From: Lachnospiraceae bacterium
GTDB lineage: Bacteria > Bacillota > Clostridia > Lachnospirales > Lachnospiraceae
DNA: 44,614 nucleotides
Assembly (NCBI GenBank): GCA_014799405.1
Contig: JAAVIA010000055.1
Span: 1-44,614, forward strand
Direction of reading: 5' to 3'
Shown: in pieces, positions 20,754-23,529 of the stretch
How positions within the stretch are numbered: the stretch's first letter is position 1
Layout of the letters: every line of letters begins with the position of its first letter
Program-made: the position numbers and the translations under genes
The notes under the pieces: model-generated
What the model was told of the DNA's origin: nothing
What the model saw: the letters and a program-made list of their open reading frames with translations, nothing else
Database searches by the model: none

Positions 20754-21545
20754 TTATGCGTGCATTTTATATTCAATTCTAAGCTTATCTGCAATCAACG
20801 CTATAAATTCAGAATTCGTCGGTTTGCCTTTTCCGGCACTTACTGTATATCCAAACATTTCCTCAATCACTTCTATTTTTCCCCTGCTCCATGCCACCTC
20901 AATTGCATGTCGTATAGCCCGCTCAACACTGCTTGATGTTGTCTTGTATTTTTTCGCTATACTCGGATATAAAAGCTTTGTAATAAAATTCAGCATATTC
21001 ATATCATTTATTGCCATGATAATTCCTTCCCGAATATACTGATAGCCCTTTATATGTGCAGGTATTCCAATCTCACGTATAATCTCCGTAACATCATTTT
21101 CAATGGAAGATGCCTGCCGACTCACATTTGCCCTCGCATCAATCTCCACAAGCTCCTCATCCTTTGATAAGCCTGCAATCTGTATAATTCTCTTTGTCAA
21201 TATTTCAGGGTTACACGGCTTCATAATGTAATAATCCGCTCCAAGATTAAATGCCATGCTTATTATACGTGGTGAACCCACGTTAGTAATAAAAATAATG
21301 CTTGTCCCTGAAAATTCTTCATTTGCACGTAGCTGCTCAACAACCTCAAGCCCGTCAACATTTGCAATAAATACATCAATCAGAAGAACATCCGGTCTGC
21401 ATTCCGAAACAATGTCATAAACAGCTGCCCCATCATCTGTTGTACTTACAATATCAATAGTATCTTCGCTTTGAACCTGTAATTGCTTTGATAGGATTTC
21501 ATAGCCTGCGTCTGCAATTACAACCCGAACTTTTTGTTCAGTCAT
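20754..21545 (-). CDS. spo0A: Spo0A-family response regulator (paralogue 1, near-canonical receiver)
   Basis: Receiver keeps PDVLLIDV (Asp), FITNVG (Thr), YYIMKP (Lys); C-terminal Spo0A DNA-binding domain [20 protein letters not shown]...[19 protein letters not shown]...[16 protein letters not shown]. Confidence 0.92.
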
Positions 21546-21596: not shown

Positions 21597-21662
21597 ATAA
21601 TATAATTTCATTTTTTCATTGTCAAGGTCGAATTTGCTTATTTTGCCAATAATAATTCGACA
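21597..21662 (-). promoter_or_regulatory. spo0A-1 promoter with 0A boxes
   Basis: Reverse strand TTGACA (21620-21625) - 17 bp - TATTAT (21597-21602); 0A-box-like GGTCGAAT at 21626-21633 (+) and TGTCGAAT at 21655-21662 (-). Confidence 0.7.
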
Positions 21663-21671
21663 TATTGTGAC

Positions 21672-22460
21672 CTAGGCGCTTTTCATTTTACTGTCAAGTC
21701 TTATCTTATCGGCAATAAGCGCTATAAACTCCGAATTTGTAGGTTTTAATTTACCCTGATTCATTGTATAACCAAACAATTCATAAATTGTATCTGTTTT
21801 TCCCCGCCCCCATGCAACCTCAATTGCATGTCTTATTGCCCTTTCAACTCTTGATGAGGTTGTCCCATACTCCTTAGCAATCGAGGGATACAACTGCTTT
21901 GTTATGGAATTCAAAACATCCATGTCACGTACCGCCATGATAATTGAGCTTCTTAAATACTGATAGCCCTTTATATGTGCAGGAACACCTATCTCATGTA
22001 TTATCTCGGTAACCTTCCGCTCCAAATTACTCTCGTAAATTTCATCTGAGCTCTCACATATGTGAATGCCTTTTTGTTTTGATTTGGACGTATTTATTAT
22101 TTCCTGAAACAAATCAATACCATCTGCCGCTTCGTCAATTATGTTTATGTATATATTATTTAATTTTCCCTTGTATATTTTTTCCAAAAATTTTATTTGG
22201 CTCATATTTGCTTTTACAAGAAACTTAAACGGACAATCCTCCCTTTTATCTATCTCATCCATTATGGCAATACCATCTAAATTAGGCAGCAATAAATCGA
22301 TAATTACAATATCAGGATTATATTTTAAAATTCCGTCCATTCCTTCCTGTCCATCCGTGAAACAGCCGCAAACATAAAAGTCTTTCTTTGTCTCAAGCAT
22401 GACCCTTAATTCATTAGCACTTCTTAAATCATGCTTGATAACAAGCACCTTTATTCTCAT
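21672..22460 (-). CDS. Spo0A-family regulator (paralogue 2, degenerate receiver)
   Basis: DNA-binding domain [20 protein letters not shown]...[19 protein letters not shown]...[16 protein letters not shown]; receiver lacks the acidic pair, conserved Thr and conserved Lys. Confidence 0.9.
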
Positions 22461-22495: not shown

Positions 22496-22524
22496 ATTAT
22501 AGCTTTGGAAAATATTAGTAACAA
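22496..22524 (-). promoter_or_regulatory. Candidate promoter for spo0A paralogue 2
   Basis: Reverse strand TTGTTA (22519-22524) - 17 bp - TATAAT (22496-22501). Confidence 0.5.
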
Positions 22525-22540
22525 GACCAAAGAGGACGCA

Positions 22541-22626
22541 AGTTGCGACACTAGGATTTGACAACATTTTCAGTCAAAAAAATAAGGGACCGTCACACGC
22601 AGGTAAATCCTTAGTGCAACAGACCC
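22541..22626. repeat. Interspersed repeat-family hairpin copy C
   Basis: AGTTGCGACACTAGGATTTG...TAAATCCTTAGTGCAACAGACCC: outer arms match each other with a small indel and match the family consensus. Confidence 0.6.
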
Positions 22627-22632
22627 GCTATT

Positions 22633-23529
22633 TTATGTATTAATATTCATCCTCGCCCTAGGATGTGCCTTATCGTATTCCTCTTTTATTTTACTTCTTC
22701 TGCTTCTTAAATATATCTGTGTTGTTGAAATGTCCGAGTGTCCTAACATTTCCTGCACGGCCTTTAAATCAGCTCCGTTATTTACAAGATGTGAAGCAAA
22801 TGAATGCCTTATCATATGCGGTGTAATCTCCTTGTCAATTCCCGCTTTCTTTGCATAGGATTTTATAAGCTTCCAAAATCCCTGTCTCGTCATCTGTGCG
22901 CCCTTCAAATTAGTAAACAGATACTCGCTTCCCTCGCACATACTTTCCCTTGCATTATTTATATAATTTTCGAGAGCAGATCTCGCTGCATTTTCTATAG
23001 GTATAACACGTTCCTTACTTGAATCCTTACATAGAATATAACTCATGGATAAATTTACATCCTCAAGCTTGATTGAAATAAGCTCTGATACTCTCATGCC
23101 TGTGGCATATAAAAGCTCAAGCATAGCCTTATCCCTTATCTCCTTCGGCGTCTGCTTTGACGGTTGCTCAAGCAGTAAATTTATCTCCTCAATATTAAGA
23201 ACCTCCGGTATCTTCTTTTCTATCTTGGGCGGCTTAATCTGCTCTGTAGGATCTGAAGCTATAACATTTTTTTTCAGCAGATACATAAAAAATGATTTTA
23301 CACTTGCAATGTTTCTTGATATGGTAGCCGATGACATCCCCTGCTTTTCAAGCGATAGTATATATGAAGAAAGCTCTGTAGGTCCTATTGCCGTTATAGA
23401 GACAGTATCCTTATCCTCAAGGTAAACACAAAGTTTGAGCAAATCTCTTTTGTAGGAAGCCATTGTGTTATTACTGGAATGTTTTACTTTATTTAAATAA
23501 TCAATGTAATCATCTACATATTCTCTCAT
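22633..23529 (-). CDS. xerD: Tyrosine recombinase XerD
   Basis: ELLYATGMRVSELISI, ITPHMIRHSFASHLVNNGADLKAVQEMLGHSDISTTQIY catalytic motifs; chromosomal nudF-spoIIM-xerD synteny. Confidence 0.93.
   Translation of the reverse strand: MREYVDDYIDYLNKVKHSSNNTMASYKRDLLKLCVYLEDKDTVSITAIGPTELSSYILSLEKQGMSSATISRNIASVKSFFMYLLKKNVIASDPTEQIKPPKIEKKIPEVLNIEEINLLLEQPSKQTPKEIRDKAMLELLYATGMRVSELISIKLEDVNLSMSYILCKDSSKERVIPIENAARSALENYINNARESMCEGSEYLFTNLKGAQMTRQGFWKLIKSYAKKAGIDKEITPHMIRHSFASHLVNNGADLKAVQEMLGHSDISTTQIYLRSRRSKIKEEYDKAHPRARMNINT

Follow-up and report, generated by a model that had tools for sequence, protein, structure and literature searches.

The window, a 44,614-nucleotide stretch of DNA from a member of the Lachnospiraceae, carries two adjacent spo0A genes, here called paralogue 1 and paralogue 2 (Table 1). 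They encode the only two Spo0A_C proteins of the window genome (2.8 Mb, 98.6% complete). The open reading frame of paralogue 2 is intact, with an ATG start and no internal stops. Its product matches the Spo0A equivalog TIGR02875 over residues 2-259 with 237.1 bits (cut-off 200), and paralogue 1 matches the same model with 280 bits. The DNA-binding domain of paralogue 2 scores 149 bits against Spo0A_C (PF08769), and its recognition helix is the B. subtilis version, the first residues excepted. Its receiver is recognised by Response_reg (PF00072) with 40.9 bits, the cut-off being 30.2. The two paralogues are 72% identical in their DNA-binding domains (82/114) and 22% identical in their receivers (25/115).

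Table 1. Features of the tandem spo0A locus, with positions in the window
Feature	Position	Strand	Description
spo0A paralogue 1 (type B)	20754..21545	-	263 aa; receiver D, T and K kept, second acid Ala; recognition helix R211S
Predicted sigma-A-type promoter, paralogue 1	21597..21625	-	TTGACA-17-TATTAT; from sequence, conserved in relatives
Second 0A-like box, GGTCGAA	21626..21632	+	Directly adjoins the -35 element of paralogue 1; present in relatives as TTCGAC
Predicted 0A box, TGTCGAA	21656..21662	-	Intergenic, upstream of paralogue 1
spo0A paralogue 2 (type A)	21672..22460	-	262 aa; pseudo-receiver and canonical Spo0A DNA-binding domain
Spo0A_C DNA-binding domain, paralogue 2	21675..22019	-	Residues 148-262
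Pseudo-receiver domain, paralogue 2	22086..22460	-	Residues 1-125; K9 H10 (acidic pair), D55 (phosphoacceptor), A84 (switch Thr), N85 (T+1), N106 (catalytic Lys)
Predicted sigma-A-type promoter, paralogue 2	22496..22524	-	TTGTTA-17-TATAAT; from sequence and relatives
ACTTGCG element upstream of paralogue 2	22537..22543	-	26/26 genus members; 5/11 type-A genes of other tandem genera
xerD	22633..23529		Directly upstream of the pair

In the active site of the paralogue 2 receiver, Lys-His stands in place of the acidic pair, the switch threonine is Ala and the catalytic lysine is Asn, and Asp55 alone remains. The motifs quoted for it in the earlier note are correct. All 26 homologues from the genus have lost the acidic pair, Thr and Lys and kept the Asp. 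The loss of the switch threonine thus stands, but a gap-free alignment of strand beta-4 places Ala84 at this position and not Lys83, as the earlier alignment implied. A set of 103 Lachnospiraceae receivers, single-copy or otherwise canonical, served for comparison. Their five catalytic positions hold D/E (102/102), D (99/102), D (103/103), T/S (103/103) and K (103/103). The paralogue 2 homologues have K/R/N, H, D, A/G/C and varied residues other than Lys at the same positions, each in 26/26, and the first acidic position is basic in 25/26. Departures from the catalytic set are therefore found in 26/26 homologues as against 0-3/103 canonical receivers, and the loss of the active site is not due to chance.

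Three neighbouring positions have been described as pseudo-receiver markers, with T+1 indicating loss of phosphorylation, K-3 loss of Y-T coupling and K+2 a bias to the active state, the latter reported in CheY (Bourret 2025, PMC12632262). Asn occupies T+1 in 26/26 paralogue 2 homologues, where 99/103 canonical receivers have Ala or Gly. The aromatic residue at K-3, which is needed for Y-T coupling, is lost in 26/26 and replaced by Ile or Val. At K+2, 25/26 homologues have I/V/L, compared with Phe in 99/103 canonical receivers. The missing residues are not present in a shifted position, a possibility raised in the earlier note. Only D11 (25/26), one residue past the acidic pair, could be considered, and since a lone aspartate cannot replace two acids, while Thr and Lys are gone in any register, this explanation fails. 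It seems quite unlikely that the domain is a slow receiver, with Asp55 phosphorylated and D11 acting as shifted metal ligand. Both residues are conserved as such a receiver would require, and so are Pro at D+4 and Gly at D+8, each in 26/26, but Thr, Lys and both acidic positions are lost, T+1 is a bulky Asn and the first acidic position is nearly always basic.

Paralogue 2 combines the equivalog score and the canonical DNA-binding domain of Spo0A with a receiver that lacks the phosphorylatable set (D/E, D, D, T/S, K). It is recognised by the receiver profile and has lost key phosphotransfer residues, as pseudo-receivers do in current usage (Bourret 2025, PMC12632262). It does not belong to the aspartate-less receivers (ALR, PMC4395418), as Asp55 is present in 26/26. 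Judged from its sequence, paralogue 2 is a Spo0A by descent and DNA-binding domain, and not a phosphorylation-controlled Spo0A.

The residues H10, D55, L57, L58, P59, N60, F80, N85, Q88 and F91 are invariant in 26/26 homologues. Together with D11, they include a new pocket set, His10-Asp11-Asp55-Asn85, which is nearly invariant across the genus. This genus-wide invariance indicates that the pocket has been rebuilt and maintained, beyond simple loss. The pocket might form a sensor, in which a metal or small molecule acts as switch in place of phosphate, and ligand-binding pseudo-receivers exist (Bourret 2025, PMC12632262). The conservation of the pocket, of Q88, F80 and F91 and of the L-L-P-N stretch exceeds what upkeep of the fold alone would need. 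A static hydrogen-bond or salt-bridge lock would, however, give an equal pattern; Asn85 is not conserved in sister genera with pseudo-receivers, and the top Foldseek list contains no close match to a ligand-binding pseudo-receiver. A sensor function is thus considered rather improbable.

Structure prediction, which had been proposed as a check, agrees with a folded receiver. The AlphaFold2 model of paralogue 2, built on a 47-sequence alignment, has a complete (beta-alpha)5 receiver with block-mean pLDDT values of 82-98 over residues 1-120, as well as the Spo0A DNA-binding fold (overall 86.8; pTM 0.56, the arrangement of the domains being unsure). The Foldseek matches of the model, 1LQ1, 1FC3, 5WQ0 and 1QMP, are all Spo0A, with TMt values of up to 0.95 for the DNA-binding domain and up to 0.79 for the receiver against solved Spo0A receivers. 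In phmmer, the DNA-binding domain matches solved Spo0A domains with 162 bits. Paralogue 1 is also predicted to have the receiver and DNA-binding domain folds (81.8).

The tandem pair is present in 26/37 genomes of the genus and in eleven other sampled genera. A tree of the DNA-binding domains was calculated with IQ-TREE from 82 rows and 124 columns, and a 205-row FastTree tree agrees with it. The bootstrap had not settled and the support values are rough: all downstream copies, like paralogue 1, fall into a single clade (100/98) distinguished by R211S and H162R, and the type-A clade (92/99) consists of the upstream copies, paralogue 2 among them, which have canonical residues at 211 and 162. 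The diagnostic positions H162, V166, L176 and R211 are canonical in 26/26 paralogue 2 homologues. Paralogue 2 is not an odd extra copy, since it is its DNA-binding domain that groups with canonical Spo0A, and paralogue 1 that belongs to a derived clade. The classical gene order is spoIVB-spo0A. The gene upstream of type A encodes the SpoIVB serine-protease motif in 12/25 genus loci with enough flank. The tree and the adjoining spoIVB in many relatives place paralogue 2 in the ancestral canonical Spo0A lineage. In the window, xerD takes the place of spoIVB, and the neighbourhood was therefore rearranged in this species group.

The type-A copies of some genera have an intact active site (L150, L151, L156, L158 and L141, the last from Anaerostipes sp. 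MSJ-23). Those with a broken receiver form a nested subclade (90/94, on the same rough scale), which comprises the window genus and five further genera (L148, L149, L152, L153, L155). In the sister genera L153 and L155 the Asp has changed to Asn. The simplest reading of these sequences is that the receiver active site was lost once after the duplication and that the Asp was then lost too in L153 and L155.

Paralogue 1 keeps Asp, Thr and Lys, as described previously, and the acidic residue replaced by Ala is the second of the pair. The contrast that the earlier note drew between it and paralogue 2 is overdrawn. The second acidic position normally supplies a direct Mg2+ ligand. It holds A/S/G/I/L/K in 24/24 scored type-B sequences of the genus, and in those of other genera Asp is absent in 14/14. 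Type-B copies of the genus still have Asp, Thr/Ser and Lys, but T+1 is occupied by T/N/S and the Pro at D+4 has gone. By the same current criteria, paralogue 1 is also a predicted pseudo-receiver, though a milder one. As both paralogues lack a full active site, the window genome has no fully canonical Spo0A receiver. A third Spo0A (L159, G022:C148), whose receiver has a complete active site and whose DNA-binding domain is divergent, is encoded by one member of the genus, G022, and the absence of a canonical receiver therefore holds for the window genome and for most, not all, of the genus.

Several sporulation genes accompany the pair. The window genome has SpoIVA, and SpoIIAB above the cut-off. 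A SpoIIE-like protein of 679 aa lies under the equivalog cut-off, and the search for SpoIIGA gave partial matches below the cut-off at a contig edge. SpoIVA is present in 31/37 genomes of the genus, whose members are presumptive endospore formers. The Spo0A pair and SpoIVA are both missing from G014 and G027, two complete genomes of the genus, and this joint absence indicates that the pair travels with sporulation genes. A Spo0E-like phosphatase, considered as a marker of Spo0A phosphorylation, was found in 0/16 sporulating genomes with the pseudo-receiver, 0/6 genomes with a tandem whose type-A copy is intact and 0/24 genomes with a receiver-deleted Spo0A. With a match in just 7/30 canonical genomes, it is too infrequent, and its distribution follows descent too closely, for its absence to be informative.

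The receiver of paralogue 2 has dN/dS values of 0.007 and 0.05 against its two nearest relatives and of 0.11-0.125 against three relatives at about 70% receiver identity, and is thus under purifying selection and not decaying. It is very unlikely that ordinary drift explains the receiver, as a redundant, dispensable duplicate that lost its function. The receiver has diverged faster than the DNA-binding domain (50% versus 84% identity to L018), as drift would have it, but dN/dS is well below 1, the pocket is invariant, the tandem is kept in 26/37 genomes and two complete genomes lack the pair and SpoIVA alike. A decaying pseudogene was also considered for paralogue 2 and ruled out by dN/dS, conservation and the joint loss with SpoIVA.

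The DNA between the two genes contains putative Spo0A targets. Over all tandem loci, 16 intergenic TGNCGAA sites were counted versus 1.0 expected from mononucleotide shuffling; as the loci are related, significance is overstated and no probability is given. The TGTCGAA box is intergenic in species like that of the window, and about half of the genus has no 0A box between the genes. In relatives, the boxes that precede the paralogue 2 gene were discounted, since most TTCGACA sites there lie inside the coding sequence of spoIVB (N-D-S-T), and the argument was restricted to intergenic boxes. In the genus and in several other genera, the ACTTGCG element upstream of paralogue 2 lies -80 to -140 from the start, beside the promoter, and is likely the binding site of some regulator. 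In the window it forms part of TGTCGCAACTTGCG at 22537-22550.

The proposal that paralogue 2 is a pseudo-receiver and hence phosphorylation-independent is well supported by the sequence, although the contrast with paralogue 1 was drawn too strongly and paralogue 2 is not the extra copy. With moderate confidence, paralogue 2 is read as a canonical Spo0A orthologue turned into a pseudo-receiver, which would bind 0A boxes independently of phosphorylation, give an output set by its synthesis and act with paralogue 1 in a cascade or hetero-oligomer. No phosphotransfer to Asp55 would take place. Instead, Asp55 might be held by a basic or polar pocket of K9, H10 and N85 and support folding or dimerisation, a role reported for the conserved aspartate in GlnR and RamR, and the I/V/L residue at K+2 could favour the active conformation. 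Paralogue 2 would then bind 0A boxes whenever it is made, and its output would track how much of it is synthesised and available. The 0A boxes at the promoter of paralogue 1 are the probable route by which it drives or tunes this gene, and the two proteins might work on sporulation genes as a cascade or as a hetero-oligomer. Control of paralogue 2 would lie in its own synthesis and in paralogue 1. Spore formation in these bacteria is probably controlled otherwise than in the textbook Bacillus pathway.

Paralogue 2 could also be an antagonist, which sits on 0A boxes without activating or poisons paralogue 1 dimers, so that sporulation would be held until its dilution or removal. Its recognition helix should be able to bind the boxes of canonical Spo0A, and paralogue 1, which keeps the Y-T coupling residues (Thr, Lys and the Tyr at K-3), could be the conditional activator. 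Paralogue 1 is not, however, an obviously better activator, as its second metal-ligand acid is missing and its DNA-binding domain is changed (R211S). In the region of about 231-240, which we take to be the sigma-A contact of B. subtilis Spo0A, paralogue 2 is closer to the canonical protein at 231 (T) and keeps F236, which speaks against an antagonist. Type A is moreover the ancestral Spo0A lineage and bears an intact receiver in sister genera. Antagonism is accordingly possible but not favoured, and its probability is low. Under the preferred reading, in which paralogue 2 would act independently of phosphorylation, a precedent is found in Sad67, a constitutive laboratory allele of B. subtilis Spo0A that needs no phosphorylation to switch on early sporulation genes (PMC4689505). 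The logic would be the same, but the change in paralogue 2 is natural, old and due to substitution instead of deletion, and its activity is predicted from sequence.

The receiver of Spo0A has also been altered elsewhere in the family. In about 24 sampled genera, the best Spo0A has an internally deleted receiver in an open frame of 180-227 aa, with a remnant of the first strand and helix followed by an intact DNA-binding domain. Examples are L168, L170, L172, L174, L177, L179, L181, L049, L050, L052, L053, L056, L057, L062 and L067. These receiver-deleted proteins form one clade (100/96, six rows) separate from the window lineage, and SpoIVA is present in 23/24 of the genomes. Like paralogue 2, they have kept the DNA-binding domain alongside SpoIVA and lost the receiver chemistry; unlike paralogue 2, they arose by internal deletion, and the partner is a protein consisting of the DNA-binding domain instead of a full-length tandem copy. 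As the pseudo-receiver and receiver-deleted clades are separate, the phosphorylation site of Spo0A was lost at least two times in the family while sporulation genes were kept.

Receiver-deleted genomes have a second Spo0A_C protein with little beyond the DNA-binding domain, which carries VERAIRNAIEVSW. In those searched, the SpoIIE matches cover the C-terminal part alone, in frames of about 390-495 aa (G256, G299, G232, G326, G209, G260, G059, G265, G126, G052 and others). This suggests that the N-terminal membrane region of SpoIIE was lost along with the Spo0A receiver. Three genomes, G106, G287 and G296, have 8 to 11 Spo0A_C domains each, possibly carried on mobile elements.

Paralogue 2 has the two-domain layout in common with the Spo0A of Bacillus and Clostridia (TIGR02875; 1LQ1, 1FC3, 1QMP, 5WQ0). 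It differs from them in lacking four of the five catalytic receiver residues, and phosphorylation should not be its switch. Among atypical response regulators, GlnR and RamR keep the Asp without a full phosphorylation site, and this Asp is reported to serve dimer formation (PMC12632262). The likeness to paralogue 2 lies in the retained Asp, whereas output domains and functions differ, and a dimer role of Asp55 is suggested by analogy. BldM and WhiI of Streptomyces are atypical sporulation regulators, one of which acts solely as a heterodimer with the other (PMC12632262). They differ from the Spo0A pair in having an unrelated output domain, a non-tandem arrangement and another kind of spore, and a heterodimer of the two Spo0A proteins is so far a hypothesis. 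Pseudo-receivers and atypical Streptomyces regulators of sporulation are therefore already known. The literature searched, an incomplete set without most subscription journals, gave no description of Spo0A paralogues or of loss of the receiver in Lachnospiraceae, nor of a pseudo-receiver in Spo0A.

Phosphorylation of Spo0A is regarded as the gateway to endospore formation and as its universal trigger. If a lineage keeps its sporulation genes without a phosphorylatable Spo0A, the trigger must lie elsewhere. It may tentatively be proposed that the window genus and about two dozen receiver-deleted genera have dispensed with Spo0A phosphorylation, and that in the window genus the conserved H-D-D-N site reads another signal or locks the protein in the on state, with a cascade of two Spo0A proteins setting sporulation; this proposal is judged less likely than not. 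The Spo0A pair offers a natural experiment, in which one DNA-binding domain has been kept, one receiver lost and the other half-lost. A spo0A gene serves as a criterion for classing gut bacteria as spore formers (PMC8340488). If the present reading is true, the annotation of a spo0A gene would say nothing on how, or whether, sporulation is triggered.
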